A DNA stretch of 64,000 nt. Source: Fibrobacter sp. (GTDB lineage: Bacteria > Fibrobacterota > Fibrobacteria > Fibrobacterales > Fibrobacteraceae). Where the stretch lies: the NCBI GenBank assembly GCA_024399065.1, contig JAKSIB010000015.1:1-64000 (forward strand). Reading direction: 5' to 3'. The notes beneath the pieces are model-generated. The model saw only the letters and a program-made list of their open reading frames with translations, made no database searches and had not been told where the DNA came from. Shown here in pieces: positions 538 to 57,221 of this stretch. Both the position numbers and the translations under genes were made by a program. Positions within the stretch are counted from its first letter, which is position 1. Each line of letters starts with the position of its first letter.

Positions 538-1089
538 ATGGAATATACGTCAGAATTTCATCAGTTCTTGGATAAGTTGGCAGCGGAAACAGGTCATCAT
601 AACCTGATCGAAGCCATCCGTGAAGGATATAAAGTAACACATCCGTTATGTGAAGGTAAAGTTACCGATTGGGCGAAGAAAAGTATTGCATCAGCTGCAT
701 TAGCGGGATCCTTAGCAACATCATCTGTTGCTGCACCTATAGATGATGACCAATCTCAGTTGGATAACAGCGATAATTCAGCATTTGTATGCGAACAAGA
801 CTTTGAGAAAATTGATGATTTGAATGATGAACTATCTTACTGGAATAAAAAATATGAAAAAGCCCAACATGATTTAGTGTACTGGTTAGAAATGGCAAAA
901 CTTGCGCACGAATATACCTACAAGGGATGTGGTGATTATTGCCATTCCGAGTTTAAAGCAGCTCAGAAAAAATTTTATGAAGCTAAAGACCGCAGGGATG
1001 CATGTGCATTGGAAATTGAACGACTTGAACGAAAAAAAGCAAGAGTGAAGCAGCGCTCAAAATGCCCATATATCTACATAAAAAACTAA
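538..1089 (+). CDS. Virion-associated protein candidate with N-terminal leader and coiled coil
   Basis: 183 residues, GAGG 12 nt before the start. Residues 1-39 form an amphipathic helical leader ending in LCE|G, very like leaders on four other proteins here (25391, 39212, 49348 and 55500). This matches the cleavage consensus of T4-type prohead proteases. Next come a small-residue hydrophobic stretch (about 49-65), an acidic linker, and a charged coiled-coil region (about 85-175) with several Cys. A late-type promoter at 485-492 fits a structural or internal head protein. Function otherwise unknown; the hydrophobic stretch could instead be a signal peptide. Confidence 0.65.
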   Translation: MEYTSEFHQFLDKLAAETGHHNLIEAIREGYKVTHPLCEGKVTDWAKKSIASAALAGSLATSSVAAPIDDDQSQLDNSDNSAFVCEQDFEKIDDLNDELSYWNKKYEKAQHDLVYWLEMAKLAHEYTYKGCGDYCHSEFKAAQKKFYEAKDRRDACALEIERLERKKARVKQRSKCPYIYIKN

Positions 1090-1198
1090 GAAACCATAGG
1101 TAGGGAATAGCTGGGTGATCCATATAAGACCACTTGGAATCATCATAGACCGTTTCAGCATTGTGCTTGCACCATACACTTTCATTGAAACCCTTATC

Positions 1199-1228
1199 AC
1201 CCTCCGCATAATTGCGGAGGGTATTTTA
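1199..1228 (+). terminator. Rho-independent terminator
   Basis: 10-bp stem accctccgca / tgcggagggt followed by attttata. It closes the transcript of the gene ending at 1089. The rest of the gap 1090-1352 holds only the promoter at 1337. Confidence 0.8.
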
Positions 1229-1336
1229 TACTAGGTAATTGTGTCAATACTTGGCAGATACCCCGTTGAAGATACACATAAAGTTCTAATTGGCTGCTCA
1301 GCAATTTACTGATTTGGGCCAGAGTTTTTCTATAAT

Positions 1337-1344
1337 TATAAACT
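1337..1344 (+). promoter_or_regulatory. Late-type promoter TATAAACT
   Basis: Exact octamer ending 8 nt before the ATG at 1353, so the transcript would be nearly leaderless. Confidence 0.6.
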
Positions 1345-1352
1345 GTAGTTAC

Positions 1353-3257: not shown

Positions 3258-4361
3258 ATGGTTGAATTGAAGACATACAAGTACAAGTTGTATAATAGGG
3301 ATGCATTGAAGTATCTCGACGACATACTTGTTATTGCAGGTCGGATATACAACCACTGTATAGCTTTGCATCGTAGGTACTACAGCCTCTACCATAAGAT
3401 GTTGAACAAGTATCAGTTGCAGAAGCACTTAACCAAGTTGAAACGACAGTATCCAGAGTGGAATGAGGTTCCTTCGCAAGCCGTACAAGATATAACGGAT
3501 AGAATAGACCGAGCATATAGGTTGTTCTTCTCCAATCTAAAAGCTGGGAAGAAGACTAATCCACCGCATTTCCAGAAAACTGCGAAGTATAGGTCGTTCA
3601 CGACCAAGCAAGCTGGATATAAGTTTCATGATTTTAATCGTGTTAAGATAGGCAAAAAAGATTTTCCCTATTGGAATAGTAGGGATTTAAATGGCAAGGT
3701 CAAGACCTTGACCGTCAAACGCAAGAGCAACGGATTCTACATATACATTGTCGTAGAGCAAGAAGTAGCATACGAAGAGTGGACTAAATCGGGTGAAATC
3801 GTTGGTTTCGACTTCAGTCTGCATGACTTCTTGGTTTCCTCTAACGGTGATGATTGCAGTATGCCTAAAATTTTGCGGAAGAACCTCAATTCTTTAAGGA
3901 ACTTATCGGAGAAATACCGTAGGTCTAAAGGTAAACGAGGTTCGCTGCGTACATTGCAGAAGCTACATGAGAAGGTGGCTAATCAGCGTTCGGATATGCA
4001 CTGGAAGCTGGCACGGCAGATGTGTCGGGACTACGATGTGATGGTATTCGAAACGCTAGACCTAGCTAACTTATCCAAGAAGTACAAGAAGTCCATGTAC
4101 GACTTTGGATTCAACACCTTCTTGAATATCCTTGAATATGTAGCACATAAGACTGGTAAGACGGTTATGTATGCAGACAAGTGGTATCCATCCAGTCAGC
4201 TATGCTCCGAATGTGGATTTCAACACCACGACTTGAAGGATGTATCCATACGACATTGGATATGTCCTAGCTGTGGTGCGGAGCACGACCGAGATAGGAA
4301 CGCCGCAATTAACTTATGTAAGGTAGGGGCATCTACCTTTGGGACATGTTGCTCGCAGTAG
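3258..4361 (+). CDS. tnpB: TnpB RNA-guided endonuclease (copy 1)
   Basis: 367 residues. TnpB proteins are RuvC-type, omega-RNA-guided nucleases, ancestral to Cas12, that cut the element-free site next to a TAM and favour retention of the element. The catalytic triad is complete: D185 in GFDFSLHD, E265 in VMVFETLD, and the Asp of HDRDRNAA near 344-346. A zinc ribbon has C316, C319, C336 and C339. The protein therefore looks active. The expected TAM is TTAC, from the flank. The final codons run into the right-end hairpins that belong to the guide RNA. Confidence 0.93.
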   Translation: MVELKTYKYKLYNRDALKYLDDILVIAGRIYNHCIALHRRYYSLYHKMLNKYQLQKHLTKLKRQYPEWNEVPSQAVQDITDRIDRAYRLFFSNLKAGKKTNPPHFQKTAKYRSFTTKQAGYKFHDFNRVKIGKKDFPYWNSRDLNGKVKTLTVKRKSNGFYIYIVVEQEVAYEEWTKSGEIVGFDFSLHDFLVSSNGDDCSMPKILRKNLNSLRNLSEKYRRSKGKRGSLRTLQKLHEKVANQRSDMHWKLARQMCRDYDVMVFETLDLANLSKKYKKSMYDFGFNTFLNILEYVAHKTGKTVMYADKWYPSSQLCSECGFQHHDLKDVSIRHWICPSCGAEHDRDRNAAINLCKVGASTFGTCCSQ

Positions 4362-9479: not shown

Positions 9480-10787
9480 TTAGGTTGATGTGTTGTTTAG
9501 GTAATCGCATATATCGTCATATGACGGTATTACGCCATGAAGTACACGCTCGTATGTCCAGTTGAGCGTCTTGGATACTGCTGCGCCGAATTCAGGACCG
9601 GGCTTGATGGATGATGCCATGACAGCTCGTGTTATGGTTGTACGTGGCACCATATCCTGTACTTTGCAGTATGTTTCGACCATATCGGCAAATGGGATGT
9701 CTTTTTCCATAATGCTATGATATACGGCCCTGAGACGGGTTATATTCGGGTTACTTGCCATCTCTACACGAGTTATCAGGTCCATGTCGCCGGACTTGAT
9801 CTTTTCAATGCTGGATGCAATCCATTTAGTTGTCCGTATCATGTCTACCGTACAACGGAAGTCGTGCATTGCCTTGTCAATGCATTCCGAATCGATAAAT
9901 AGAAGTGCCATTGCCGTAATGTCGTCGTAGTGCAGTTCCGGGAACATTCCGGCGTGATCTGCAATCGCACGGTTTCGTATACGGATAAGAGTAGAACGTG
10001 ATATCATGGCGCATTGCGATACATGCAGGTGAGCGTCGCATGAATGGAATAGTGAAACGAAATCGGCAAAAGCGGTTGCACCATATTTTGCACATTTCTG
10101 GAATTCGGCATATATTCGGTCAATGGAGATTTTTTCAAGCATTGACACATTCTTGATGATGCTGTCTTTGGTATCGTCATCAATGCCCATGGTAAATCGT
10201 GCGGCGAAGCGCATTGCACGAATTATGCGGAGGCCATCTTCAGAGAACCGGTCATCCGGGTTGCCTACAGTACGGATATATCCGACCATAAGGTCATGGA
10301 TGCCGTCGTGGTAGTCGATGATGTTACCATCCCGGTCTATTCCCATTGCATTGATTGTAAAGTCTCGACGATCAGTATCTTCCTTGAATGAATTGGTGAG
10401 ACTGATATGGTCTGGATGGCGGCCATCGGTATATCCTTGTTCGGTACGGAATTGTGTTACCTCGAACCAGTCGTTCTTATGCTGAACTAAAATCGTCCCA
10501 TGGGCTTCTCCGTTATTGCTTTCGCAGCGGAAAGCCTTCTGCAGTTCGCTGATCGGCATGTTTGTAGCTATGTCGATGTCGTGTATTTTGGATGGCTTAT
10601 TCAATAAAGCTTCAAGAATCAAGTCTCGTACTGAACCACCTACAATATACGCCTCATATGGCACACCTTCCGAATTCGTATGGCTTGTGATAAGTCGCAT
10701 CAGCTCGATTCCGGACCGTAATGTTTTGCCCTTGTACATGGACAGGTCGATACGCATGGCATCGTAATTGAACGCCTTTTTGATCAT
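9480..10787 (-). CDS. cca: tRNA nucleotidyltransferase (CCA-adding enzyme)
   Basis: 435 residues from the ATG at 10787, whose start overlaps the stop of the upstream small gene (TAATG). Class II nucleotidyltransferase: GGSVRDL near 50, the metal-binding pair D-I-D near 69, the R-R-D-F-T-I-N-A-M block near 143, and the E-D-G-L-R-I-I-R-A-M-R-F-A template-binding block near 183. It adds or repairs the 3' CCA of tRNAs. Poly(A) polymerases share the fold, but the blocks favour the CCA type. With RtcB and the Thg1-like enzyme it forms a possible tRNA repair set. Confidence 0.9.
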   Translation of the reverse strand: MIKKAFNYDAMRIDLSMYKGKTLRSGIELMRLITSHTNSEGVPYEAYIVGGSVRDLILEALLNKPSKIHDIDIATNMPISELQKAFRCESNNGEAHGTILVQHKNDWFEVTQFRTEQGYTDGRHPDHISLTNSFKEDTDRRDFTINAMGIDRDGNIIDYHDGIHDLMVGYIRTVGNPDDRFSEDGLRIIRAMRFAARFTMGIDDDTKDSIIKNVSMLEKISIDRIYAEFQKCAKYGATAFADFVSLFHSCDAHLHVSQCAMISRSTLIRIRNRAIADHAGMFPELHYDDITAMALLFIDSECIDKAMHDFRCTVDMIRTTKWIASSIEKIKSGDMDLITRVEMASNPNITRLRAVYHSIMEKDIPFADMVETYCKVQDMVPRTTITRAVMASSIKPGPEFGAAVSKTLNWTYERVLHGVIPSYDDICDYLNNTST

Positions 10788-10945
10788 TAGTCGTTTCCTT
10801 TCCAGTAGCCTTCCTCGGATTCTTCCCAGCAGCCGTTCCAGTATGGATTGTCGTTGCTGGAGCATGCCAGCAAGGACGTAGTGAAATCGAATTCGATTAC
10901 CTTCATGGAAGGTGGTGTATATGGTTTCTTTTGTTGTGTACTCAT
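10787..10945 (-). CDS. Small Trp/Tyr-rich protein
   Basis: 52 residues (starts MSTQQKKPYT, ends EEGYWKGND), below common length cut-offs. The ATG overlaps the stop of the upstream gene (ATGA) and the stop overlaps the cca start, with AAGGA upstream. The tight coupling supports a real gene. Function unknown. Confidence 0.7.
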   Translation of the reverse strand: MSTQQKKPYTPPSMKVIEFDFTTSLLACSSNDNPYWNGCWEESEEGYWKGND

Positions 10946-11996: not shown

Positions 11997-13100
11997 ATGG
12001 TTGAATTGAAGACGTACAAGTACAAGCTGTATGATCGGGATGCGTTAAAGTATCTCGACGGCATACTTGTTATTGCTGGTCGGATATACAACCACTGTAT
12101 AGCTTTGCACCGTAGGTACTACGGCATATACAATAAGATGCTGAACAAGTATCAGTTGCAGAAGCACTTAACCAAATTGAAACGACAGTATCCAGAGTGG
12201 AATGAGGTTCCTTCGCAAGCCATACAAGATATAACGGATAGAATAGACCGAGCATATCGGCTGTTCTTCTCGAACTTGAAATCTGGGAAGAAGACTAATC
12301 CTCCTCACTTTCAGAAGACAGATAAATACCGTTCATTCACGACGAAGCAAGCTGGATATAAGTTCCATGGTTTAAATCGTGTTAAGATAGGCAAGAAAGA
12401 CTTCCCCTACTGGAATAGTAGAAATTTCGATGGCAATGTCAAAACATTGACCGTCAAACGCAAGAGTAACGGCTTCTATATATACATTGTCGTAGAGCAA
12501 GAATGTACACAGACAGAGTGGACTAAATCGGGTGAAATCGTTGGTTTCGACTTCAGTCTGCATGACTTCTTGGTTTCCTCTAACGGTGATGATTGCAGTA
12601 TGCCTAAAATTTTGCGGAAGAACCTCAATTCTTTAAGGAACTTATCGGAGAAATACCGTAGGTCTAAAGGTAAACGAGGTTCGCTGCGTACATTGCAGAA
12701 GCTACATGAGAAGGTGGCTAATCAGCGTTTGGACATGCACTGGAAGCTGGCACGGCAAATGTGCCGTGACTACGATGTGATGGTGTTCGAGACGCTAGAC
12801 TTAGCTAATATGTCCAAGAAATACAAGAAATCGATGTATGACTTCGGGTTCAACACTTTCTTGAACATACTGGAGTATGTGGCACACAAGACTGGCAAGA
12901 CCGTTATGTATGCGGACAAGTGGTATCCATCTAGTCAGCTATGCTCCAAATGTGGATTTCAAAACCACGAATTGAAGGATGTATCTATACGACATTGGAT
13001 ATGTCCTAGCTGTGGTGCAGAACATGATAGGGATAGGAACGCCGCAATTAACTTATGTAAGGTAGGGGCATCTACCTTTGGGACATGTTGCTCGCAGTAG
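11997..13100 (+). CDS. tnpB: TnpB RNA-guided endonuclease (copy 2)
   Basis: 367 residues, nearly identical to copy 1 with intact RuvC residues (GFDFSLHD, VFETLD, HDRDRNAA) and zinc ribbon (CSKCG, CPSCG). Differences are patchy: one central block is identical to copy 1, while the stretch around 12727-12890 follows copy 3, including wording of synonymous codons. That suggests gene conversion between copies. Confidence 0.93.
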   Translation: MVELKTYKYKLYDRDALKYLDGILVIAGRIYNHCIALHRRYYGIYNKMLNKYQLQKHLTKLKRQYPEWNEVPSQAIQDITDRIDRAYRLFFSNLKSGKKTNPPHFQKTDKYRSFTTKQAGYKFHGLNRVKIGKKDFPYWNSRNFDGNVKTLTVKRKSNGFYIYIVVEQECTQTEWTKSGEIVGFDFSLHDFLVSSNGDDCSMPKILRKNLNSLRNLSEKYRRSKGKRGSLRTLQKLHEKVANQRLDMHWKLARQMCRDYDVMVFETLDLANMSKKYKKSMYDFGFNTFLNILEYVAHKTGKTVMYADKWYPSSQLCSKCGFQNHELKDVSIRHWICPSCGAEHDRDRNAAINLCKVGASTFGTCCSQ

Positions 13101-13232: not shown

Positions 13233-13823
13233 TTATAATAGCATCTTTTTTGCGTATTTATTGATTACATCCGATACATAGCGTACAAAAAATACCTCTG
13301 ACCTGTTTGGAATTTTATAGGGGGTTGTGGCGTGCGGAATCTCGTATGTGCTATATTTTAATGGATTTAAGTTAATGTCGTCGATTGTCGCTAAATCTTC
13401 CACACCACTATGTATGCAGATTCCGATCAGGCGGGTTATCATGCCGGTTGTTGGCCCAGAAATATATTCATCATGATATTGTCTATATTTTTTGATAATT
13501 TTCTTTGCGGTTTGCAAATCGCAGCTAAACAGAATGCCTGTAACTAGTTGGCTATACTCAAATTGGCACTGGCTAAGTAGATCTACTAAGAACCCATATT
13601 CGACAAAATCCGTTCCTCTTGTTAATACGATGAAGATGTCATTCGTTTCATTAACACGGGGATTGCCGATTCGCATGGTTAGCGCAGGAAATTGTTCCTG
13701 CGGGTGGCTGATTCGTATTCCATAGGTACCGCCGTGTTCATCTGAGTATGAGACCAATGAGATTAAATTTAATGTGGCGATGTAATCCACTAAAGCTGTC
13801 AGAGTTGTCTTGAAATCGGTCAT
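13233..13823 (-). CDS. Hypothetical protein with C-terminal NPLxY module
   Basis: 196 residues. No known domain. The C-terminal third contains D-D-I-N-L-N-P-L-K-Y (about 152-161) and ends YAKKMLL. The same pattern appears in the next two upstream genes and, at the N-terminus, in the two FISUMP proteins. It is the last gene of a three-gene leftward operon with 4-nt overlaps. Confidence 0.75.
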   Translation of the reverse strand: MTDFKTTLTALVDYIATLNLISLVSYSDEHGGTYGIRISHPQEQFPALTMRIGNPRVNETNDIFIVLTRGTDFVEYGFLVDLLSQCQFEYSQLVTGILFSCDLQTAKKIIKKYRQYHDEYISGPTTGMITRLIGICIHSGVEDLATIDDINLNPLKYSTYEIPHATTPYKIPNRSEVFFVRYVSDVINKYAKKMLL

Positions 13824-14497
13824 ATAAGAAGGCTCTTAGCATACATGGATGCCATTTTTAGAATGTCATTACAATACATATCATACACATTGTATGAATT
13901 GCCGCCGCATGTTGCTGGGTTGATGTATGCTAATGGATTGCATGCAATTTCGTCTGCACTGTCAGGAATTCCAAGTTTATGCAACGGTGTACCATCAGCA
14001 GCATCCCGGCAGTTTGATATCATCCGGTTGATCATGTCATGTATGCTGAATGTGCTAACATATTCCTTGAATTTTGCAAAGCAGTCGTCCTCTTCTTGCT
14101 CGGGTATTACATTGTATGTTTGCTTGAGTAAGATAGATAATGGGCGGTCCATTTTATAGTTTAAAAAGTCTATTCCATATCGTGAAGATGCTGACGAAGT
14201 TATGCTTACACCGCATGGAAAACGGGTTTCCCATATTGGATCCATATTGTCGTCCGACCGACGGCCGTATATATCTATATTGTTGAATGGAAATTGTAGA
14301 ACTTTCTGTATTACTATGTCACCAAACTTGAACAGCTTGCCCCCGGCGTTCAGCGACAAGAAATATGTCGACATCGATGGAAATGCTTTCACATCGACTA
14401 CGAGAATGTCATTGTGTTGTAGTTTGTCAATGAAGGCATGGATCGCTTGATCAGTGACCTTGTCATGCGGATTTTGATTGGTTCCAAGTTCAGTCAT
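13820..14497 (-). CDS. Hypothetical protein with C-terminal NPLxY module
   Basis: 225 residues, mixed alpha/beta. The C-terminus has DEIACNPLAY and ends YAKSLLI, as in its neighbours. It overlaps both by 4 nt (ATGA). Role unknown; the three may form a complex or share a processing signal. Confidence 0.75.
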   Translation of the reverse strand: MTELGTNQNPHDKVTDQAIHAFIDKLQHNDILVVDVKAFPSMSTYFLSLNAGGKLFKFGDIVIQKVLQFPFNNIDIYGRRSDDNMDPIWETRFPCGVSITSSASSRYGIDFLNYKMDRPLSILLKQTYNVIPEQEEDDCFAKFKEYVSTFSIHDMINRMISNCRDAADGTPLHKLGIPDSADEIACNPLAYINPATCGGNSYNVYDMYCNDILKMASMYAKSLLI

Positions 14498-15150
14498 CGT
14501 GATAGTAGCCCCGTCGCATACTGTTTTGCAATCAGGAACAGCGTATGCTCGTAACGGTCCTTGGTCAATTCCATGATTGTAGTGATAGATGGCTGCCCGT
14601 CGGCCATGGCGTACTTTACCGGATTGGTCACGATGTCGTCAAATGACTCGATTCGTGAAAAACAGCCGGTCTGTTTGCACATCTGGATACCATTTGTAAA
14701 GAATTTTTTCAGGGTGAATGCTTTCATGTACCGCCTGATAAGCTCGAACTCCTCGGCTGTGTTGACTATCTGGAACATATTGTCGACAAAGAAACAATTG
14801 TTGGTACGCATTGAGTATAGATAATCGATTCCTAGAACACCCGAGATTGTATGCTTATTGCAAGACACGTACATCCTGTCGATCGCCTGATCGAATAACG
14901 GGACCGAATCCGGGTTACAGAGGTTATCTGCCGTTGCGCCTATTTTACATTCGACCAATATGCGTAAAAATGGATCTTCATCGCCTTTGTTTGGGTTCGG
15001 CCAAATGTCGATTGCGAGTTTCTTGCTGTATTTTCCATGAGTTAGATCGTGACCGATCTTAGGATATAGTCCGGTAGCCTCTATAGCCCGCATCAAGTTG
15101 GCTATAGGTGACGTTGTGTCTGAATTTAAAAAATTGAATGGTCTAACCAT
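14494..15150 (-). CDS. Hypothetical protein with C-terminal NPLxY module, leaderless
   Basis: 218 residues from the ATG at 15150, which lies 7 nt after the TATATT of its promoter; a longer frame to 15186 would start inside the -35 box. The C-terminus has DDIVTNPVKY and ends YATGLLSR. First gene of the leftward operon. No domain recognised. Confidence 0.75.
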   Translation of the reverse strand: MVRPFNFLNSDTTSPIANLMRAIEATGLYPKIGHDLTHGKYSKKLAIDIWPNPNKGDEDPFLRILVECKIGATADNLCNPDSVPLFDQAIDRMYVSCNKHTISGVLGIDYLYSMRTNNCFFVDNMFQIVNTAEEFELIRRYMKAFTLKKFFTNGIQMCKQTGCFSRIESFDDIVTNPVKYAMADGQPSITTIMELTKDRYEHTLFLIAKQYATGLLSR

Positions 15151-15157
15151 GGCACGT

Positions 15158-15186
15158 AATATACTATTTTGATTAAACCATGTCAA
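15158..15186 (-). promoter_or_regulatory. Sigma70-like leaderless promoter, leftward
   Basis: Minus strand TTGACA (15181-15186), 17-nt spacer, TATATT (15158-15163), then 7 nt to the ATG. Confidence 0.8.
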
Positions 15187-15196
15187 GAGTCTGGTT

Positions 15197-15204
15197 TATA
15201 AACT
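15197..15204 (+). promoter_or_regulatory. Late-type promoter of the glycan operon
   Basis: TATAAACT ending 6 nt before the ATG at 15211, back to back with the leftward sigma70-like promoter. Confidence 0.7.
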
Positions 15205-15210
15205 ACTTGC

Positions 15211-15816
15211 ATGACGAATATAATCATAAGTAATTGTTGCGCAGGTGCCGACATATACAACTTTGCCCATAAGGAATTTGACAACCCGTTCATGTGGTGC
15301 CGGATTTCAGGAAAGAATATGCTTGCATTGATAAGCAGATGGGGTGATATAGATTGGGAACGGGTCATACCTACGGCTAATTTCGATGGGCTCCATACTG
15401 GATTGAACGTTGACGGTATTGACATAGATTATCCGCACTATAAATATGATGTGCTGCCAACATATAAATCTGGCGTAGACGTGCGTTCTAAGGATATTTT
15501 GAACTATACCATGGACAAGTACCGTGCTAGGGTTAAACGAATGCTCAGCGGGCCTGTAAACCCGGTTTTTGTAGTAATTACTTATCCAGAAAACCATATG
15601 GGCCTAGATGACATAGTGACGATGCGGAATATGTGCGCCGATCGGCATTACCGGTCTTTCATAGTCACATGCGATGCGGTGGATAGCTTAGGTTGTGTCA
15701 CCGTGTACAGGGACCCGGCCGTAAATACCGTACCTAAGAAGAATCCGGGCTATTTTCTGCGTAAGCATAATATTTATGCCGCCGCAAGTAAACTTATCAC
15801 GGGAGACGTACTGTGA
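15211..15816 (+). CDS. DUF1919-family glycan biosynthesis protein
   Basis: 201 residues. The start (IIISNCCAGADIYN) and the following segments (NPFMWCRI, F-x-x-L-I) match DUF1919, a family found in exopolysaccharide and capsule clusters and thought to act on sugars. It is the first gene of the rightward glycan operon, probably leaderless behind a late-type promoter, and overlaps the next gene by 4 nt. Confidence 0.75.
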   Translation: MTNIIISNCCAGADIYNFAHKEFDNPFMWCRISGKNMLALISRWGDIDWERVIPTANFDGLHTGLNVDGIDIDYPHYKYDVLPTYKSGVDVRSKDILNYTMDKYRARVKRMLSGPVNPVFVVITYPENHMGLDDIVTMRNMCADRHYRSFIVTCDAVDSLGCVTVYRDPAVNTVPKKNPGYFLRKHNIYAAASKLITGDVL

Positions 15817-16505
15817 TTGACCTGAAAGACATATCCGTTGTAACGTGTAACTATAACACGCCTGAGTTTACCCGCAGGATGGCCGAATCGTTGTTCTATC
15901 ATCTGAACCAGCGCATCACAATGATTATCATGGATAATGGGAAAGACCATCCGTTGAATTTTTCCGATTATCATACCTATAATGTGTACAACAATACTTG
16001 TCACAGCATCATCCCGGACCACCGTCAGGGAAGCCATGACCATTGTCATGCGGTGGATTACGCCATAAAAAACTTGGTGTCGACTAAGTGGGTGGTCATC
16101 AGTGACAACGACGTGGTTTACAAGCCTACTGTAAAGGGGTTTCTGGAAAATCTAGATGAGAGTGTGGATTGCTATGGCGAGATTGGATGGGACCATACCC
16201 CGCCTGACCGGATTTTTCCGTATTTTTGCGTGATTAACCGTGACAAGTTCATTGCCGATAATATGGACTATTATGATCCGGACAGACTGCTTAAATATCA
16301 TATGGACGGGATGTATATACAGCAAGAATATAATTTTATGGATACTGGATATTCGTTCTACGAGGACGCCAAGGCTAAAAACTGGTTGATTAGGGAAATC
16401 AAGATGGACGACTATATCATGCATCTAGGCCAAGCGTCTTTGTACAGAAAGCATTTTCGTGACTGGGTGGAAGCAACCCGGCACCTGTATAACGAGGAGA
16501 CATGA
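15813..16505 (+). CDS. GT-A family glycosyltransferase
   Basis: 230 residues. It opens with ISVVTCNYNTPEFTRRM, like family 2 transferases, has a predicted donor-metal motif S-D-N-D-V near 93 (a DxD variant), and an H-T-P-P-D-R-I-F-P-Y block near 132. It presumably transfers a sugar from a nucleotide donor in the cytoplasm. A paralogue is at 17151-17864. It overlaps both neighbours. Confidence 0.8.
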   Translation: MIDLKDISVVTCNYNTPEFTRRMAESLFYHLNQRITMIIMDNGKDHPLNFSDYHTYNVYNNTCHSIIPDHRQGSHDHCHAVDYAIKNLVSTKWVVISDNDVVYKPTVKGFLENLDESVDCYGEIGWDHTPPDRIFPYFCVINRDKFIADNMDYYDPDRLLKYHMDGMYIQQEYNFMDTGYSFYEDAKAKNWLIREIKMDDYIMHLGQASLYRKHFRDWVEATRHLYNEET

Positions 16506-17864: not shown

Positions 17865-17874
17865 GGTTGATTAT

Positions 17875-20161: not shown

Positions 20162-20175
20162 ATCGTCTCCTATGA

Positions 20176-20823: not shown

Positions 20824-20845
20824 GTGGTCTCCCTGTTTGCATAAT

Positions 20846-20853
20846 AGTTTATA
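20846..20853 (-). promoter_or_regulatory. Late-type promoter, leftward
   Basis: TATAAACT on the minus strand, 22 nt before the ATG at 20823. Confidence 0.6.
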
Positions 20854-20859
20854 ACCGCC

Positions 20860-20888
20860 TTGACATATAATTGTCAAAATTGTATATT
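20860..20888 (+). promoter_or_regulatory. Sigma70-like leaderless promoter
   Basis: TTGACA (20860-20865), 17-nt spacer, TATATT (20883-20888), then 6 nt to the ATG at 20895. Confidence 0.8.
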
Positions 20889-25356: not shown

Positions 25357-25364
25357 TATAAACT
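25357..25364 (+). promoter_or_regulatory. Late-type promoter TATAAACT
   Basis: It lies after an upstream in-frame ATG at 25349 and before AAGGA (25379) and the ATG at 25391, so it fixes the start at 25391. Confidence 0.65.
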
Positions 25365-39519: not shown

Positions 39520-39527
39520 AGTTTATA
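39520..39527 (-). promoter_or_regulatory. Late-type promoter, leftward
   Basis: TATAAACT on the minus strand, 11 nt before the ATG at 39508. Confidence 0.6.
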
Positions 39528-42656: not shown

Positions 42657-42746
42657 TAACGTCAACTACCAGCACAATAAGTTTGCACCTGATCGGTCGA
42701 AAGAACAACTAATTGATCCAGAAAATAATTTTTTCTAAAATATGTC

Positions 42747-42775
42747 TTGACAGCGGTGCAGCAAGTTTTTATATT
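42747..42775 (+). promoter_or_regulatory. Sigma70-like promoter of the P-type ATPase
   Basis: TTGACA (42747-42752), 17-nt spacer, TATATT (42770-42775). The preceding gap (42657-42746) shows nothing else. Confidence 0.8.
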
Positions 42776-42826
42776 CACACATGCGGGAAACTCCCGTCTA
42801 ATTTCATATCACAAAAGGTTAACAAT

Positions 42827-45460
42827 ATGAACAAGAAAAAAGGTTTGACTAGTGACGAAGTCTTGGTAAGCAAGGCTAACCATGGTCAAAATATCATTCC
42901 CGACTCCGAACCGACAACCTTCTGGGCCGAATTTAAGGAATCCTTTGGCGATCCGATGATCCGAATCCTGCTGGCGATTGCAGGCTTGATGATCGGTCTC
43001 TGGGGAGCGTCCAAGGTCTTCCCGCAGGCTGGTATTGAACAGGGTATCTATGAACCGATCGGCACCCTTGTTGCCGTATTCTTGGTTGCAACAATTTCAG
43101 CAAAGACGGCCGTGTCTTCCGATGGTAAGTATCGAGACCTGAAGAGCCGTACCAAGAAGGATACCGCAAAGGTTTGGCGTGACGGCGAATACATCGAATT
43201 GCCGTTCGAAGAAATTGTAGTAGGTGATGTAGTTCACCTGCAATCCGGCGATAAAATCCCTGCCGACGGCGTCCTTGTTGAAGGTTCACTCCGTGTTGAC
43301 AACTCTGCACTCAATGGCGAAGCTGATGAATGCAAGAAGGAAGGTGATCCGAATGCCAAGTTGCCTGAACAGATGTCCGGTGACATGTTCGTTGACAAGT
43401 CTTCTCTGTTCCGTGGAGCGATTGTGTATGACGGCGATGGCGAAATGGTCATCCAGCGTGTCGGCCTTCAGACTATGATGGGCAAGATGGCAGAAGAAAT
43501 GGCTGGTGATGAAGTTGACTCGCCGTTGAAGGTGAAGCTGGCTAAGCTTGCTGGACAAATTTCAATCTTCGGATATGTGTCCGCTGCTTTGATCGTTGTG
43601 CTTTACTTTGCTATGGGCGTGGTGAACGCTGGTGGCTTTGGTGAGTTCTTCGATCTTGGATGGCAGCATGTACTGAATACTTTCATCAATGCTGCTGATC
43701 TGGCTATCCTGATCGTTGTCTGCGCAGTACCTGAAGGTCTTCCTCTGATGATTTCTCTGGTTCTTATGCAGAACACATCCAAAATGCTTGACCACAATGT
43801 GCTCGTACGTAAGGCACAGGGTATCGAGACCGCAGGTTCTCTGAATATCCTGTACTCCGACAAGACTGGTACAATTACTAAGGGTAACCTTGAAGTAGTA
43901 GAACTGTTTAGCGGTGACGGTAAATCTACCGGAATGAGCAATGATCTCGGCGCTTGCCTTGCAAACAACACTCAGGCATCGTTTGATCGCATGGGTAAGG
44001 TTCTTGGTGGTAATGCAACCGAACAGGCTCTGATGAAGTTCTTGAATGCAGATCGTTTCCACGAATTTGCTGCCCAGACCGTAAAGTTCCAAGGTTTCAA
44101 CTCTGCCAATAAGTTCTCTCAGGTTCAGCTTGCTAACGGCCGTACCTATTACAAGGGTGCGCCTGAAAAGTTGATTTCCAAGTGTTCTCGCTTTGTCGAC
44201 ATCAATGGTGTAATCCATGATATTGACGCTACGGCACTTAACGACAAGATTACCGAAATGGCTAAGAAGGCTATGCGAATGCTTGCTTTCGCCTATGCGG
44301 AAAAAGATCTCGTCGAAGACTCCATCCATGACGATCTCGTACTGATTGCAGTAGCTGCAATCCGTGATGATGTTCGTCCAGAAGCCCGTGATGCAATCGC
44401 TGCAGTAAACCGTGCAGGAATTCAGGTTGTGATGATCACCGGCGACCGAATCGAAACCGCTCGTGCAATCGCAGTTGACGCAGGCCTCGTAACCAGCGAA
44501 AACGACATTGTACTTACCTCTTCCGACCTTAACGCAATGAGCGACGATGACGTTAAGGCAATTATCCCAAAGATCCGTGTTATCGCACGAGCTCTTCCTA
44601 CCGACAAGTCCCGTATGGTCCGCTTGTCACAGGAACTGGGCCTTGTGTGCGGTATGACTGGTGACGGTGTGAATGATTCCCCGGCCTTGAAGCGTGCAGA
44701 CGTTGGCTTTGCCATGGGTAGCGGTACTGAAGCTGCCAAGGAAGCTGGCGATCTGGTTATCCTTGATGACAATTTCCGTTCTATCAAGAACGCTGTTCTG
44801 TTCGGCCGTACGATTTTCCACAACATCATCAAGTTTGTCAAGTTCCAGCTGACCATTAACGTGGCTGCAGTTGGTGTAACACTGCTCGCACCGGTATTCG
44901 GTGTCGAAGCTCCATTGACTGTCGTTCACCTCCTGTTTGTGAACCTCGTGATGGATGGCCTTGGATCTATGATGCTTGGTTCCGAACCCGCATTGGATTC
45001 CTATATGACTGAAAAGCCCCGTAACCGTGACGATTCTATCATTGACAAGTCCATGATTGGTTCTGTGATTGTTCCGGCTGTGTGGATTATTGCACTCGGA
45101 TTTGTATTCCTGAAGCTCCCGATTTTCACTGGTCTCTTTGAAAGTACAACGCAGATGAATACCGCATTCTTTGCATTCTTTATCTGGGCTGCCTTGTGGA
45201 ATGGGTTCAATGTCCGTTCCGACAAGTTCAAGATTTTCTCCGGTCTTAGGGAAAATCCGGGATTCCTGAAGGTTCTCTTTACCATCGCAATTGTGCAGGC
45301 TCTGATCATCAATATCGGCTCGTTTGACAACTCTGTTTGCCAGACAATCTCAAAGATGTTCAGTTGTGTGCCGTTCGGTGGAATTGAATGGCTGATTATC
45401 GCTGCATTGTCATTCACAATCATCCCTATTGCATCCATTGCAAAGCTTTTTAATAAGTAA
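42827..45460 (+). CDS. P-type Ca2+-transporting ATPase
   Basis: 877 residues from the ATG at 42827 (AAAGG upstream). Order of parts: N-terminal cytosolic segment, membrane pair (about 43-95), actuator domain with the TGE-type loop (L-N-G-E-A-D near 165), membrane pair ending in V-P-E-G-L-P-L near 303, phosphorylation site D345-K-T-G-T, hinge G-D-G-V-N-D-S near 611, and six C-terminal membrane helices. P-E-G-L-P-L and the overall length fit the Ca2+-ATPase (P2) class. It would export Ca2+ or a similar cation from the cytoplasm. A P-ATPase is unusual in a phage. Confidence 0.9.
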   Translation: MNKKKGLTSDEVLVSKANHGQNIIPDSEPTTFWAEFKESFGDPMIRILLAIAGLMIGLWGASKVFPQAGIEQGIYEPIGTLVAVFLVATISAKTAVSSDGKYRDLKSRTKKDTAKVWRDGEYIELPFEEIVVGDVVHLQSGDKIPADGVLVEGSLRVDNSALNGEADECKKEGDPNAKLPEQMSGDMFVDKSSLFRGAIVYDGDGEMVIQRVGLQTMMGKMAEEMAGDEVDSPLKVKLAKLAGQISIFGYVSAALIVVLYFAMGVVNAGGFGEFFDLGWQHVLNTFINAADLAILIVVCAVPEGLPLMISLVLMQNTSKMLDHNVLVRKAQGIETAGSLNILYSDKTGTITKGNLEVVELFSGDGKSTGMSNDLGACLANNTQASFDRMGKVLGGNATEQALMKFLNADRFHEFAAQTVKFQGFNSANKFSQVQLANGRTYYKGAPEKLISKCSRFVDINGVIHDIDATALNDKITEMAKKAMRMLAFAYAEKDLVEDSIHDDLVLIAVAAIRDDVRPEARDAIAAVNRAGIQVVMITGDRIETARAIAVDAGLVTSENDIVLTSSDLNAMSDDDVKAIIPKIRVIARALPTDKSRMVRLSQELGLVCGMTGDGVNDSPALKRADVGFAMGSGTEAAKEAGDLVILDDNFRSIKNAVLFGRTIFHNIIKFVKFQLTINVAAVGVTLLAPVFGVEAPLTVVHLLFVNLVMDGLGSMMLGSEPALDSYMTEKPRNRDDSIIDKSMIGSVIVPAVWIIALGFVFLKLPIFTGLFESTTQMNTAFFAFFIWAALWNGFNVRSDKFKIFSGLRENPGFLKVLFTIAIVQALIINIGSFDNSVCQTISKMFSCVPFGGIEWLIIAALSFTIIPIASIAKLFNK

Positions 45461-49347: not shown

Positions 49348-52300
49348 TTACTTTTTGCGCATAAGCTTGGTCATTAGCGATGAAGGAGCCTTGGTGTCCG
49401 TATTCTGAGAGGCCGGGATAGTCTTTGTGTCGGCGAATCGACCGAACAGACGGGTTCCTGCAGTACCTGTAGTCGGACGCTGGAGCTTCAAACCATTGGT
49501 TGCAGCATTCTTTTCGTTCATATCAGAAACCATGCCTTCACGCTTACGTGCCATCTGTCCAATGTAGTCGATATTGTCTTCATAGGAATCTGCACGTTCA
49601 CGCATATTGCCTTCACTATCGGCTTCAAGCAATTTGTTCATGAACTTAATGATCGGATATGTTTCTGTGTCAATAAAGACACGGGCAATCAGATCACTGG
49701 TGCGGTCGATAAATGCGGCGTCTTGCTTATTGATCATGACAGCATCCGGTTCATTAGCCTCAAACAGGCCACTGCCAGACATGTTGATAGATTCAAAATC
49801 ATCTTCCATGTCGGCATCGTATGCATCGTTTACCATAGGTGCTTCGTCGCCTTCGGGTTCTTCAGTCTTGGTTCCCGGTACAAACGAATTTTCCTCATCA
49901 AGTTCAGATTGGGCCAATTTTTTGAGCGTATCATTAGCACTAAGAATTGCTGATGTCTTCATGGTAATCTTGGTTCTGAATGCAGCGGAGTCGTCCGTTT
50001 CGGTAATATCTTTCTTCACCTGTTCAGCCGGTGTGCGGCGTAGATAATCGGTGATTGCCTTGGCCATAGCTGCACGGATTTCGAAATCGATCATGGCATC
50101 TTTGGCTTCGGTTTCATCAGTCATTCCGGCAACCTTCTTGTCAAGAGCTTCCTTGCTTGCCGGATTTACCTTCAGAACGTCTTCGATGGAATACAGGTTG
50201 TTATCGCCATTCAGGTCCAGTTTGATATTGTACGGGAGGAAATGTTCACCACTAGATGTTGCAGTGACGATACCAAAGTTTTCGCCAGCAGTACTACGGG
50301 CATTTTTGAAAGCGGTATAGCGTCTCTGGTTCGGGGCGATATTCAATCCGTGCAAGCTGAGCTGTTCCGGGTTGATCAGCTTGTTAATATAGCGTGAACG
50401 TCCCGGGGCCTTTTTATCGAGGTTAATGAGATTTTCTACAGCTTCGGAATACTTAACACCCTGCACATAGCTGCTGTTGTCTGCAGCGAAATCCTGTGCT
50501 GCTCGAACAGTAGCAGTAATCAGCAGTGCCAAGTGGGTTGATGTTTCCGGGGTGATATTCTTACCGATTACACCGTTGTAGGAAATACGTACGATGTTCT
50601 TGGCACGTTCAGGATGAGCTTCCGTCTTCTTCTTGGGACCAACCGTCGTTACGGTGAAGTCATTGGAATGACCCTTTGTCACGAAGTTCTGGATGGCAAA
50701 AGTGTGAACGGTATCACGCATGAAATCAGCAACGGTGGATGCCATGTTTGAACTCGGCAATTCCACATATGCATAAAGATTGTTATCTGGATCAAGTTCC
50801 GGATCATATACATTCTGCAAACGGTCAGTTACATTGGCGGATCCCATCTTATCTGCACCAGCATCTTCACTGATCTTGAACTTTGGATTCATGTGGATAC
50901 GGACACAATTCTTCTGGGATGTCAGGCCGGCAACCAAAGCATTGATGATTTCATTGAGCTGGCTTGCCTGCTGTTCAGTCATTCCTTCACTATCGTTCAA
51001 TGTGAAGGTGATGATTCCGGTTGGAACAGTGGTATCGCCGTCCTGTGTAGTCACCTCGTTAATAAGGAACTTGGATGAAGACAGGATTGATGTATCTTCA
51101 TATGTAGCATTTTCGTCAATAAATGCTTCCAAGCCAAGGCCGGGGTGGTTTTCAATGGCCTTCTTCAATCGTGCCAAGCATACTGTCTTGAGCTTCTGGA
51201 TCGTGGTTTCCATCAAGCCGACGTCAATGCCGCTTGCATTAACAGTTGCACGGGCGTAGTTACATGGCACCTGCAGAACGATCGATGCGTCAGACTTAAT
51301 AGCTGCGTCCCATTCATTCTGGAATGCTTCGCCATCACGCAGGCGACTTGCCTTGGCGGTTGCTGTATTATATTCGGTTACTCGGCTATCACGAGCAATA
51401 TCATCCTGAATCACGGATTCGTCATTTTCACGGAATTGGAATACTCCAGACTTTTCGCCGTCGGTGTTTGCAGCGACAATATTAACCTGTCGAGAACCGA
51501 GATCGGTCTGGGCTTTGATGATGTTCTTCTCGTTTGTATTCACCCAGTCAGTCAATTCATCGATGAAGTTGTTGATTGTATTCTTCATGTCGTTGAGCGC
51601 AGTGGTAAACCACGTATCAAACTGAGTCATGCTTTTTGACAGGGCATCCAGTGCGTTATTGTACGCAGCTTCGATTCGACGATAATTGTCGGTGTATACA
51701 GAAACCTCGGCCCATGCTTCGGATTTTTGTGCCTGAAGCTTAGTTGTATCAGCGCCAGTCTTTGCAGCCTGTTCAAGTTCTTTATTCAGTGCCTCGGCAA
51801 TTTGCATCTTTTCAGCACGAGCATGAGCTGCATTGTCCAAAGCGTCCTTTGATTGGCTAATATTGTTCAAGATTTCCGAACTTTCATTGTCATCGCTAGA
51901 CACACCGGTCAGCTTATAAATGGTATTTATGTCAAAACGATGTGCATTTTTAAGGATAGGATCCATGTTGAAATTATCAACAATATCTACGAATTCGTTC
52001 AGTACATCACCCAAAATGGCAGTATTGATTTTGGATGCAGCAAGATACAGTGCTTGAATTACAGTCGGGTCGTCCGTTGCATTTTTAGAAGATACTTTGA
52101 AACCTTCATCTAAATGAGCTTGGTTTGCATTTACAAAGAAATTAACATTGTCGTTGCTACTATGCAACATCAAATTTGTTGCCATAGGTGCATATTGCTT
52201 CAACTGCAAGTAACCGTTTAAAACCGGTTCACACAATTCCAACAAATCATTGACAAGTGAAACGGTTTCCTGTGGGATAGACGATGTATCGCCGGAAAGT

Positions 52301-52452
52301 TCAAAAGTCTTAACTGATGGCTTTACGGGCGACGGTGCTTGACCATCGGCTGCTTCGAAAATTGTATTGTACATGGCTGCAACGGCTTCAAGATAGGTCT
52401 TGTTGGCTGGAGTTTCCAGTCGTTTCAGCGCTGTGATGAATTGTGAATTCAT
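49348..52452 (-). CDS. Large late protein with processing leader
   Basis: 1034 residues, AGGAG upstream. Residues 1-33 are a helical leader ending TIFE|A, parallel to four other proteins and to T4-type capsid targeting sequences. The body is soluble with helical and coiled-coil parts (about 185-320), a central alpha/beta region, and a flexible acidic, Pro/Gln-rich end closing in a basic tail (LMRKK). The late-type promoter and size suggest an abundant internal or structural virion protein. No recognised family. Confidence 0.75.
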   Translation of the reverse strand: MNSQFITALKRLETPANKTYLEAVAAMYNTIFEAADGQAPSPVKPSVKTFELSGDTSSIPQETVSLVNDLLELCEPVLNGYLQLKQYAPMATNLMLHSSNDNVNFFVNANQAHLDEGFKVSSKNATDDPTVIQALYLAASKINTAILGDVLNEFVDIVDNFNMDPILKNAHRFDINTIYKLTGVSSDDNESSEILNNISQSKDALDNAAHARAEKMQIAEALNKELEQAAKTGADTTKLQAQKSEAWAEVSVYTDNYRRIEAAYNNALDALSKSMTQFDTWFTTALNDMKNTINNFIDELTDWVNTNEKNIIKAQTDLGSRQVNIVAANTDGEKSGVFQFRENDESVIQDDIARDSRVTEYNTATAKASRLRDGEAFQNEWDAAIKSDASIVLQVPCNYARATVNASGIDVGLMETTIQKLKTVCLARLKKAIENHPGLGLEAFIDENATYEDTSILSSSKFLINEVTTQDGDTTVPTGIITFTLNDSEGMTEQQASQLNEIINALVAGLTSQKNCVRIHMNPKFKISEDAGADKMGSANVTDRLQNVYDPELDPDNNLYAYVELPSSNMASTVADFMRDTVHTFAIQNFVTKGHSNDFTVTTVGPKKKTEAHPERAKNIVRISYNGVIGKNITPETSTHLALLITATVRAAQDFAADNSSYVQGVKYSEAVENLINLDKKAPGRSRYINKLINPEQLSLHGLNIAPNQRRYTAFKNARSTAGENFGIVTATSSGEHFLPYNIKLDLNGDNNLYSIEDVLKVNPASKEALDKKVAGMTDETEAKDAMIDFEIRAAMAKAITDYLRRTPAEQVKKDITETDDSAAFRTKITMKTSAILSANDTLKKLAQSELDEENSFVPGTKTEEPEGDEAPMVNDAYDADMEDDFESINMSGSGLFEANEPDAVMINKQDAAFIDRTSDLIARVFIDTETYPIIKFMNKLLEADSEGNMRERADSYEDNIDYIGQMARKREGMVSDMNEKNAATNGLKLQRPTTGTAGTRLFGRFADTKTIPASQNTDTKAPSSLMTKLMRKK

Positions 52453-52484: not shown

Positions 52485-52492
52485 AGTTTATA
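52485..52492 (-). promoter_or_regulatory. Late-type promoter, leftward
   Basis: TATAAACT on the minus strand, 32 nt before the ATG at 52452. Confidence 0.65.
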
Positions 52493-55022: not shown

Positions 55023-55041
55023 TAGACCCAGAGGTATTTTT

Positions 55042-55425
55042 ATGTCTAAAGCTAGTGAAATGTATTCTATTGCGGTTGCAGCACGTTCGAAGTCAAGTGC
55101 GCAAGCCAAGTATGAAAATATGCTTGAACGTCTTCAGGAAGGCGCCAAAGCAGGTCGTACCGAAGCCAATATCCCAATCATGAAGAAAATCATGTTTGAA
55201 ACCATGGCGTCACAACTCAAAGCAAATGGTGCTGAATTGCCGGATACCTATGCGGATGATGAATATGACGCACAGTACAAGATTCTTGATATGTTTAGGG
55301 CCGACGGGTTTGATGTGAATGTCGAAAAGAAGACCAATCTGATCCTGCTTGGCAATGAAAACAATGATTCTGACCCCTACACTGAAGCGAATGCCACCGT
55401 GTCGTGGGATGGAAAGACAGAATAA
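55042..55425 (+). CDS. Hypothetical protein
   Basis: 127 residues from the ATG at 55042 (AGAGG upstream). Helical first two thirds, acidic polar end. No family recognised. Confidence 0.7.
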   Translation: MSKASEMYSIAVAARSKSSAQAKYENMLERLQEGAKAGRTEANIPIMKKIMFETMASQLKANGAELPDTYADDEYDAQYKILDMFRADGFDVNVEKKTNLILLGNENNDSDPYTEANATVSWDGKTE

Positions 55426-55451
55426 CGGCAGTTTACCTCTGCAAATGAAAA

Positions 55452-55482
55452 CGGCGAGTTCCATCTGGGACTCGCCGATTTT
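55452..55482. terminator. Bidirectional terminator
   Basis: 11-bp stem cggcgagttcc / gggactcgccg, with a T-run after it on the plus strand, between convergent genes. Confidence 0.8.
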
Positions 55483-55499
55483 AATTGTACCGAGCTTGG

Positions 55500-57221
55500 T
55501 TAGAAGGTATAATTCTTTATGACGCTGTTTCCAGCACCCTTGACACCATTATAAGCCTGTTTTAGATAGCCCTTAATACCGCCGCCTTCTTTCTTATCTT
55601 GATCTTTATCCTTGTCATCGTCGCCGCCCATAGTGAAGTCATCTTCTCCCGGATCGTCGCCGTCCTGACCATTCTGGCCATTCTGGCCAAAGCCAAGTTC
55701 TTTTTGACGGTATCGGATTGCATTATTCATATCTTTAAGAACGAATCGTTCAATCTGATGTTCAGTATTTTCATCAAGCTTGCCATCATAGGGCTTTGTG
55801 ACGGCCTCCTTGTATTTTTCAACAAGTTCATTGAGTTGTTCTTCATTGACGTCGCCGTTACTTTCGTCAATGCAGTCCTCAGCTTCATTGCGGGCAACTG
55901 CACTGTAGTTTCGCTTATAATCGTTGATCATTGAGCGCAGCATGTCATTTTGATCCATGTCCTTAGCGGGTTCTTTGGCCGGTTCGGGTTCTTTGGTATC
56001 CTTACCCGGTTCAGATGCTTCAGGTGGATTAGTGGCTGTATTCAGCTTATATTCATCCGCATGCTTCTGGAGGTCCTGCTTTAGCTGTTCGGCATATTCA
56101 GGCTTTTTAAATTTATTGTCCTTGGCATAGCCCTCGATTACCGGGAAGAACTTATTTTTCAGCACGTCGTTTTTTGCTGTGTTTGCTTCCTCGTCGGTCT
56201 TATATTCTTTTTTACCCAAGTATTCAAGATGCTTATCCAGTCCGGCAATCCATTGGTCACGAAGCTTCTCGTAATCTTCGTCCACATCGTGTTCAGGTGG
56301 TTCCGGAGTATCGTCCGCATCTGGCTTCGTATCATCGCCGGACCCATCGCTGGACTCATCAGGGACATCCTCATTCTTGGCATCGCCCATGTCATATTTA
56401 TCAGCATATTCTTCAAGTTTTTTCTTGATGTCGTCACCCTGTTCCTCGGTGAGTTTGCTGCGTTTGTTCTGTACATTTTTATCGACTGCAGCCTTTTGCT
56501 TGTCTACAGCTTCCTGTTTCTTCTGGGCAATCTCCTGCTCAGTCATGTCAGGGTTGGACTGGCGTTCGTCCTTGATTGCAGCAAGATCCTTATCCAATTC
56601 GCTGATATAATTGGCACCAATGCGATCAGCATACTGATTCTGCTTATCCTGTTCCTTCTGGCGTTCCATTTCTTCACGTTCTGCAGCAGTCGGGACAGTT
56701 TCATCTGGATTGTTCTGAAGAGTATTTTTTGTATAATCCAGCATGCCATTAAGAACTTTCTGAAATACACTGCGGGCCGAATCGATATTTTTCGATGTAA
56801 TATGTGTGGCTTCTTCAAGTTCTGTTTTTTTTAGTTTTTGCTTGGCATTATAAGCAAGATACTTTACGTTCAGGGTGATTTTATTGTCATCGATCGAAAT
56901 CGCTTTTTTAGCCGATGAGTCCATCACGATATAGTAATCTTCCCCGCCGATATTTACAGTGATTTCGTGTGCATCCGCATTCTGTCCAAAAATCTGGCGG
57001 AATAATGCGCCACGATTTCCAGACTGCGTATTGGTTGTATCAAATGCAGCTTCAATGGCCGACATTATCGCCTGATTTGTTTCAGTATTCTTCTTTTTAC
57101 TTGTCTGTGTGTCGGCCTCAAACATCGCATTGTACATATGCTGGTTGGGGTTCGACTCATTTTTTGACTCGAATATCATATCGAACTTGTCGAGCAGATC
57201 ATAGGACATATCAATAATCAT
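55500..57221 (-). CDS. Acidic coiled-coil protein with processing leader
   Basis: 573 residues from 57221 (GAAGG upstream). The leader ends AMFE|A at residue 36 (31 if started at the fifth codon after Met). The rest is extremely charged: a globular part to about 130, long Glu/Lys/Gln coiled coil, acidic Asp/Pro linkers, and a Gly/Asp-rich end. The composition resembles scaffold or core proteins of T4-like heads, which are removed by the prohead protease. This is inference from composition, leader and the late-type promoter at 57247. Confidence 0.7.
   Translation of the reverse strand: MIIDMSYDLLDKFDMIFESKNESNPNQHMYNAMFEADTQTSKKKNTETNQAIMSAIEAAFDTTNTQSGNRGALFRQIFGQNADAHEITVNIGGEDYYIVMDSSAKKAISIDDNKITLNVKYLAYNAKQKLKKTELEEATHITSKNIDSARSVFQKVLNGMLDYTKNTLQNNPDETVPTAAEREEMERQKEQDKQNQYADRIGANYISELDKDLAAIKDERQSNPDMTEQEIAQKKQEAVDKQKAAVDKNVQNKRSKLTEEQGDDIKKKLEEYADKYDMGDAKNEDVPDESSDGSGDDTKPDADDTPEPPEHDVDEDYEKLRDQWIAGLDKHLEYLGKKEYKTDEEANTAKNDVLKNKFFPVIEGYAKDNKFKKPEYAEQLKQDLQKHADEYKLNTATNPPEASEPGKDTKEPEPAKEPAKDMDQNDMLRSMINDYKRNYSAVARNEAEDCIDESNGDVNEEQLNELVEKYKEAVTKPYDGKLDENTEHQIERFVLKDMNNAIRYRQKELGFGQNGQNGQDGDDPGEDDFTMGGDDDKDKDQDKKEGGGIKGYLKQAYNGVKGAGNSVIKNYTF

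Follow-up and report, generated by a model that had tools for sequence, protein, structure and literature searches.

In phage T4, an N-terminal leader directs internal proteins into the core of the prohead, the protease gp21 removes it, and the injected proteins inhibit GmrSD restriction enzymes (PMC3012670, PMC5694885, PMC9391042, PMC12373910). Two proteins of the phiKZ-related phage SPN3US, gp53 and gp54, are described as having their first 15 residues in common (PMC5694885, PMC10052503). Here we analyse 64,000 bases of a Fibrobacter sp. assembly (GCA_024399065.1, positions 1 to 64,000 of contig JAKSIB010000015.1), hereafter the window, in which an earlier note had described five unrelated proteins opening with a common leader that ends in hydrophobic-x-Glu, and had read them as a head-packaged set with a T4-like capsid-targeting leader. 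Our analysis supports this reading: more leaders occur on a second contig of the assembly and on related viral contigs, and the resemblance between them ends at the predicted cut. We propose, with a probability of about 0.85, that this leader serves a T4-superfamily jumbo phage as its capsid-targeting propeptide, cut in the prohead by an S77 protease, and that its cargo is ejected into the next host.

A leader shared by unrelated proteins

The window makes up bases 1-64000 of a contig of 87,392 bases (C15) in a 3.82-Mb assembly of 118 contigs. We conclude that it belongs to a jumbo phage of the T4 superfamily, at least about 250 kb long, which is split over C15 and a contig of 164,362 bases of the same assembly (C5). 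We regard the two as pieces of one phage because they share homologues on a single 355-kb viral contig (G100), which matches 97 of 130 C5 genes and 24 of 116 C15 genes, a gene being here an open reading frame (ORF) of at least 70 aa retained by a greedy choice. The C5 homologues are largely collinear on G100 and those of C15:40486-59507 form one block at 294-308 kb; five of the 97 and five of the 24 matches fall on one G100 gene (243842) that itself matches TnpB-type genes, and are little informative. No join between C15 and C5 was seen.

C5 encodes the portal, the T4-type major capsid protein (MCP) and, near them, the gp21-like protease whose absence would have refuted the earlier reading, a Peptidase_S77 gene (Pfam E 1.2e-17) that also matches the head maturation protease of PHROGs (2.5e-32) and PDB 5jbl, "Prohead core protein protease" (3.8e-12). 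The portal is assigned to phrog_213 (5e-62) and the MCP to phrog_138 (3.7e-70). A Pfam search of the assembly gave no S78 protease, and among 99 further genomes, relatives of the presumed host, none had an S77 protease. Compared with the MCPs of the 20 top-listed of 2487 phage records, that of C5 shows about 29-33% identity; for the 79 IMG/VR loci retained, identity is 58-86%. A Bacteroidaceae metagenome-assembled genome from sheep reticulum contains one relative (66%). Positions 1-25000 of the window had no megablast match among phage records.

The five window genes and the motif TATAAACT that precedes each of them are as follows (a slash marks a predicted cleavage point).

485-492, plus strand: TATAAACT, 45 nt before 538, likely late promoter of gene 538
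538-1089, plus strand: leader gene 1, 183 aa; leader 538-654, 39 codons, LCE/G
655-735, plus strand: Sec signal-like stretch of gene 538, followed by a Cys-containing body
25357-25364, plus strand: TATAAACT, 26 nt before 25391
25391-26386, plus strand: leader gene 2, 331 aa; leader 25391-25486, 32 codons, ICE/G
39212-39496, minus strand: leader gene 3, 94 aa; leader 39392-39496, 35 codons, ICE/Q
39520-39527, minus strand: TATAAACT, 23 nt before 39496
49348-52452, minus strand: leader gene 4, 1034 aa; leader 52354-52452, 33 codons, IFE/A
52485-52492, minus strand: TATAAACT, 32 nt before 52452
55500-57221, minus strand: candidate leader gene 5, 573 aa; leader 57117-57221, shorter and with weak support, 35 codons, MFE/A
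57247-57254, minus strand: TATAAACT, 25 nt before 57221

All five leaders ending in hydrophobic-x-Glu are present in the sequence. The gene at 39496 keeps the position first given to it, with its strand corrected to minus, and in 57221 the Glu falls at ORF position 35 instead of 36. Each leader was scored with a profile built without the tested protein or anything linked to it by phmmer, and compared with shuffles of its own N terminus. In this leave-one-out test, 39496, 538 and 52452 scored 29.8, 29.1 and 23.5 bits, and none of 1000 and none of 500 shuffles reached them; the scores of 25391 were low (4.5 and 6.3 bits), yet they too were reached by 0/1000 and 0/500. The claim that all five genes share the leader hence stands for these four and is borderline for 57221, whose positional homologue on G100 reads IFE...NPN...IFE/A. 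For gene 2, 25391 is a better start than that of the longest ORF (25349), because the motif at 25357-25364 falls inside the latter. Its body is related to those of three proteins from other viral loci (L020, L021, L030), with leaders of 19.3, 15.7 and only 6.4 bits by a profile from six C15/C5 leaders. No relative was found for the body of the 1034-aa protein, which had no tblastn match in phage records; by peptide patterns, neither it nor 127764 nor 538 had a relative in the viral contigs.

The search of the rest of the genome that the earlier note had proposed revealed further leaders on C5, where four genes are firm (22489, 50508, 127788 and 2569, each reached by 0/1000 shuffles). A profile of 14 leaders, run over the whole assembly, matched seven places on C15 and C5, and elsewhere gave two chance-level matches (C57 and C16, E 0.02 and 0.35). 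These seven matches correspond to half of the 14 profile rows, the others coming from related contigs, so that leave-one-out is the fair test; neither 57221 nor C5:2569 was matched in this search. Among 19 related viral contigs, 15 match the leader profile at E<=1, with up to nine matches in a 54-kb contig (G114, that of L069), where the nine leader genes at 10430-33712 carry similar leaders on unrelated bodies, some of them in tandem. One leader of 36 aa, searched against 50,697 phage records, had a best E of 0.9.

An iterated profile over 19,686 ORFs retrieved 94 that scored at least 2 bits above the best shuffled decoy; nine proteins were added by hand and duplicates removed, leaving 80 proteins, eight of them hand-added. 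By blastp, these have 53 body families, 40 of them singletons, and phmmer detects homology between two of the 53 (G100:42386 and G103:88270). When 54 representatives are aligned globally, the consensus is confined to the leader, one late P excepted, with F-x-x-F-L-E-S near residue 12, E-A-x-x-x-G in mid-leader and a terminal Glu in at least 90% of rows. The leader recurs, as a swappable module, in front of about 50 unrelated bodies. Short helical segments such as these might resemble each other by chance, and 57221 is indeed reached by some of its own shuffles. Yet, with homologues excluded, 50 of the 55 families or homologous groups tested outscored every one of 500 shuffled versions of themselves, and outside C15 and C5 the 3.8-Mb assembly gave only the two chance-level matches; for most members chance is contradicted, and overall we hold it to be highly improbable.

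The earlier note had also placed all five window genes behind TATAAACT, and this proved correct: the motif ends 23-45 nt before each start. The window has 13 copies, against 2.5 expected, and on C15 and C5 the motif lies within 60 nt upstream of all 11 leader and candidate genes tested (C5:142004 was left out), against 31 of 235 other genes. It lies only 6 nt from the start of C5:50508, whose true start may be elsewhere. We take TATAAACT for the likely late promoter of the leader genes on these two contigs.

The predicted cut site and the proposed fate of the cargo

The boundary of the module argues for cleavage. In 133 pairs of leaders with unrelated bodies, amino acid identity is 1.0 at P1, 0.27 at P1' and 0.02-0.13 over the next 25 residues, while nucleotide identity at the same positions falls from 0.88 to 0.46 and then to 0.23-0.39 past the cut. 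The pairs are non-independent, P1 is Glu because the cut was placed at one, and only pairs with unrelated bodies were selected; these conditions alone would not put the drop at exactly this position. In a cleaner comparison, a local DNA alignment of the 109-residue propeptides of G100:83720 and G118:20779 stops on the GAA codon of P1, although a tblastn match runs six residues further, to 115; G118 lacks any counterpart of the body of G100:83720. Among the 80 leader proteins, P1' is A, S or G in 61 and P3 is mostly L, C, I, Y or F. An upstream hydrophobic-hydrophobic-[ED] site occurs in 54 of the 80 leaders, a count made with no chance control, and the leader may be cut twice.

A site of the same general form is found in the capsid protein. 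All 58 MCP sequences found by pattern in the 79 loci have E/[ASG], the pattern having demanded A, S, G or T at P1' but not Glu; P3 is L or M in 51 of the 58, and five more MCP sequences shown also have E/S. The predicted Glu is residue 51 of the MCP, at the start of the block that aligns to residues 79-140 of T4 gp23; the alignment of the first 43 residues to gp23 is not significant (2.1 bits). T4 gp23 is described as losing 65 residues (PMC5694885).

The leader could instead remain uncleaved, as a helix for docking or membrane binding through which a range of late proteins is brought to some other structure of the phage, the Glu being part of its fold. Two AlphaFold models, poor overall (pLDDT 49.9 and 69.7), show a low-confidence helical leader, as this would predict, and the absence of a leader match from four related contigs is in its favour; a fold search with the model of pLDDT 69.7 gave nothing at E<=0.001. 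Such a helix would hardly explain why the similarity between unrelated proteins stops at the predicted scissile Glu, nor the E/[ASG] site in the capsid protein of all 58 pattern-found relatives of a phage with its own S77 protease, and we regard it as distinctly unlikely. A second alternative takes the leader proteins for prohead core or scaffold that is degraded during maturation rather than delivered. More hydrophobic-x-E sites do occur in some bodies (for example C5:144282) and in the core candidate C5:133441, and the 80 leader proteins have 49 further sites more than 20 residues past the cut. However, about 50 unrelated bodies, most found once and including a Nudix enzyme, are unlike a conserved scaffold, which makes this explanation unlikely too.

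We thus favour a capsid-targeting propeptide, because the N-terminal module common to unrelated proteins ends at a site suiting the prohead protease that the phage itself encodes. The cargo genes would be transcribed at a late stage of infection, those of C15 and C5 each with a TATAAACT promoter of its own, and the leader of 32-39 residues would bring the protein into the prohead core. The S77 protease would then cut after a hydrophobic-x-Glu site similar in general form to that of the MCP. The mature bodies would stay in the head, enter the next host together with the ejected DNA and act there as early effectors like the internal proteins of T4.

Several results weigh against this reading. 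Packaging, cutting and ejection are all deduced from sequence. The candidate 57221 scored 3.8 bits and was reached by 23/1000 and 10/500 shuffles, which is not clearly above chance; G118:20779, G103:20225, G103:88270 and G100:114634 were reached by 1, 1, 2 and 3 of 500. Three weak C5 candidates (102772 and 145010, minus strand, and 142004) were reached by 7, 12 and 7 of 1000, respectively, and C5:142004 has no TATAAACT among the motif positions listed. Four of the 19 related contigs (G106, G107, G108 and G117), although they have a related MCP, gave no match to the leader at E<=1. Of the 37 leader genes printed for six related contigs, only 11 have TATAAA[ACT][ACT] upstream, some of the starts being set at an internal Met. 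Glu at P1 is true of the leader set by construction, the cut having been placed there, and 2 of 103 proteins have no fitting Glu; P3 of the MCP is K in 7 of 58 sequences. Homology to the T4 capsid-targeting sequence (CTS) was not detectable: IPI, IPII and IPIII score -3.7, -2.0 and -2.2 bits with the leader profile, values reached by 180, 93 and 60 of 300 shuffles. Finally, annotation says little of the cargo, the Nudix family alone having a Pfam match among the 54 proteins; other matches were one in PADLOC at E 0.0007 and, besides Nudix, one PHROGs "portal protein" at E 0.00025.

Two proteins with leader-like N termini are of note. The Nudix hydrolase gene of L052 (2704-3288) and its six relatives lies beside the capsid gene, and its N terminus ends in LLE/F, with an unusual P1'. 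The product of C5:152030-152542 (L011 12030-12542) matches phrog_858, starvation-inducible, which we read as Dps-like, with DUF5856 below the cut-off. It does not match the leader profile (109/1000 shuffles reach its score), and related proteins on other contigs keep E/A[AGD]D; it is possibly a head-packaged DNA-binding protein.

Signal-like stretches behind the predicted cut

At least four body families, including that of 538 in the window, have behind the predicted cut a stretch resembling a Sec or lipoprotein signal, a feature new here. Directly after the cut, 538 reads GKVTDWAKKSIASAALAGSLATSSVAA and C5:127788 reads SIGSKIVAPVAMAIASLLGAANA, and both bodies contain several cysteines. G100:42386 and G103:88270, 37% identical, have the same arrangement of leader and signal-like stretch. 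A lipoprotein-like family has LLLAAACMLTAC/AGN in 5/5 aligned sequences, two being the same protein; its gene adjoins the MCP gene in L031, L037 and G103 and lies about 5 kb off in L032 and L034. A second lipoprotein form, G100:83720, has a 109-residue propeptide and LVAC/AGG; hhalign gives the two lipoprotein groups a 25% probability of homology. Among the other lipobox-like ORFs listed, 5 of 7 have a possible start, a Met, 15-19 residues ahead of the Cys, like ordinary lipoproteins. By a home-made rule and inspection, the subset shows the features of Sec or lipoprotein signals (basic n-region, hydrophobic core, A-x-A or lipobox).

The test of this association was restricted to profile-found families. 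Under the strict form of the rule, a signal-like stretch follows the cut in 3 of 49 families, against 8 of 2086 control sites (p 0.0016), and one of the eight control hits, G100:83720, is itself a leader lipoprotein. A count over all leader proteins (8 of 80 proteins, 5 of 53 families) was set aside as biased, since five of the eight had been added after a search for signal peptides. In five of six ortholog pairs of the lipoprotein family, the 32 leader codons show 13-14 synonymous and 8-11 nonsynonymous changes, and the 20 signal codons 10-12 and 1-2, respectively; over 60 body codons both types are about equal, and the sixth pair is nearly identical. These changes fit translation of both leader and signal part. 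A wrongly annotated start was also considered for the subset: 538 has no ATG, GTG or TTG between the cut and the hydrophobic core, whereas the five other signal-bearing proteins read have a possible start codon near or after the cut.

These arrangements may represent two sorting signals in series, the capsid-targeting leader covering a Sec or lipoprotein signal peptide. The leader would send the protein to the prohead, not to the membrane, its removal by the protease would arm the signal, and the Sec system of the new host would export the protein to the periplasm or outer membrane. The minority concerned (538; C5:127788; G100:42386 and G103:88270; the lipoprotein family near the capsid gene; G100:83720) would be kept from export during its synthesis and would leave the cytoplasm once in the newly infected cell, where it might, for example, shut out competing phages before any phage gene expression. 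The matches listed in the open-licence literature include no account of a prohead protease that uncovers a signal peptide.

We advance this proposal tentatively, at less than even odds. The subset is small and the rule is not SignalP; against control sites in the first 70 residues (4 of 506), the same rule gives p 0.018. Two signal-bearing proteins, the lipoprotein G103:20225 and G103:88270, belong to the groups reached by a few shuffles, although the orthologue of the first (L034) and the homologue of the second (G100:42386) are reached by none (0/1000 and 0). G100:42386 alone has a Shine-Dalgarno-like AGGAA just before a TTG near or after the cut, so that an internal start is possible in this gene. 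These shuffles and this TTG make a masked signal somewhat less probable.

Rather than a cleaved export signal, the hydrophobic stretch may be the transmembrane or pore part of an ejection protein assisting DNA in crossing the inner membrane, a competing explanation to which we likewise give less than even odds. It fits the weak hydrophobic core in 538 and the example of SPN3US gp47, in which a propeptide precedes a predicted transmembrane domain thought to interact with the host membrane (PMC5694885). The lipobox in two groups speaks against it (LTAC/A in all five aligned sequences, with the duplicate noted above, and LVAC/A in G100:83720), as do the A-x-A-like site after the hydrophobic core in the other members and the cysteines in the bodies of 538 and C5:127788.

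Neighbouring genes and comparison with known systems

The phage contigs also carry repeated TnpB or IS605 OrfB-like genes (window 3258-4361, 11997-13100 and 59791-60906; C15 72404-73555; C5 102924-104036). That at 11997 matches Pfam OrfB_IS605 and a Cas12f1-like TNB domain, and the other four were recognized by a shared N terminus or the same G100 gene; four of the five have TATAAACT 100-108 nt upstream. A P-type cation-transporting ATPase (Pfam; window 42713-45460) is 78% identical on G100. A cluster of genes of about 200-290 aa, on both strands, occupies window 13233-20877; six were scanned, and they include a family 2 glycosyltransferase (17151) and a TupA-like ATP-grasp protein (18538), so that the cluster is perhaps a surface-glycan module. 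Other window genes are:

9480-10865: poly(A) polymerase head domain protein
31861-33042: RtcB ligase
57297-58463: UDP-galactopyranose mutase
58521-59507: Amidase_2 protein

If our reading holds, the leader provides a sequence handle on the injected arsenal of a jumbo phage group for which we found only metagenomic relatives, and about 50 uncharacterised protein families can be listed as probable virion-delivered effectors. This list is larger than that of the T4 internal proteins defeating type IV restriction, and may include anti-defence, superinfection-exclusion and envelope-modifying proteins. Were the masked signal peptides true, phage delivery would reach beyond the cytoplasm, to the periplasm or outer membrane, through the Sec system of the host. 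A further use to try for the leader would be as a cargo-loading tag for phage heads.

The closest parallel is with T4, where the unrelated bodies of IPI-IPIII and Alt likewise share only an N-terminal leader, the CTS removed by gp21. The S77 prohead protease, the T4-type portal and capsid, and a hydrophobic-x-Glu cut site, here a predicted one, are common to both. The window leaders, however, have 32-39 residues, against the 10-20 given for T4 (PMC5694885), there are many more body families, and some have a signal-like stretch behind the cut. We speak of a CTS-like propeptide, and not of a member of the T4 CTS family, because the leader is longer and does not match the T4 internal proteins.

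SPN3US resembles this phage in that N-terminal propeptides of head and ejection proteins are removed by its prohead protease (PMC5694885, PMC10052503), and its gp47, in which a predicted transmembrane domain stands behind the propeptide, at the N terminus of the mature form (PMC5694885), is the nearest precedent we found for the signal-like subset. As described there, however, six of eight N-terminal propeptides have 111-254 residues and are cut after A-x-E, a form not met here, where P3 is mostly one of the residues given above. In these SPN3US papers we found no report of a propeptide common to dozens of unrelated proteins, and the phage described here differs further in its T4-type structural genes. 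Phage P1 offers a last parallel: DarB has a capsid targeting signal of 30 residues at its N terminus, which are reported to suffice to bring a reporter into the capsid (PMC9024508).

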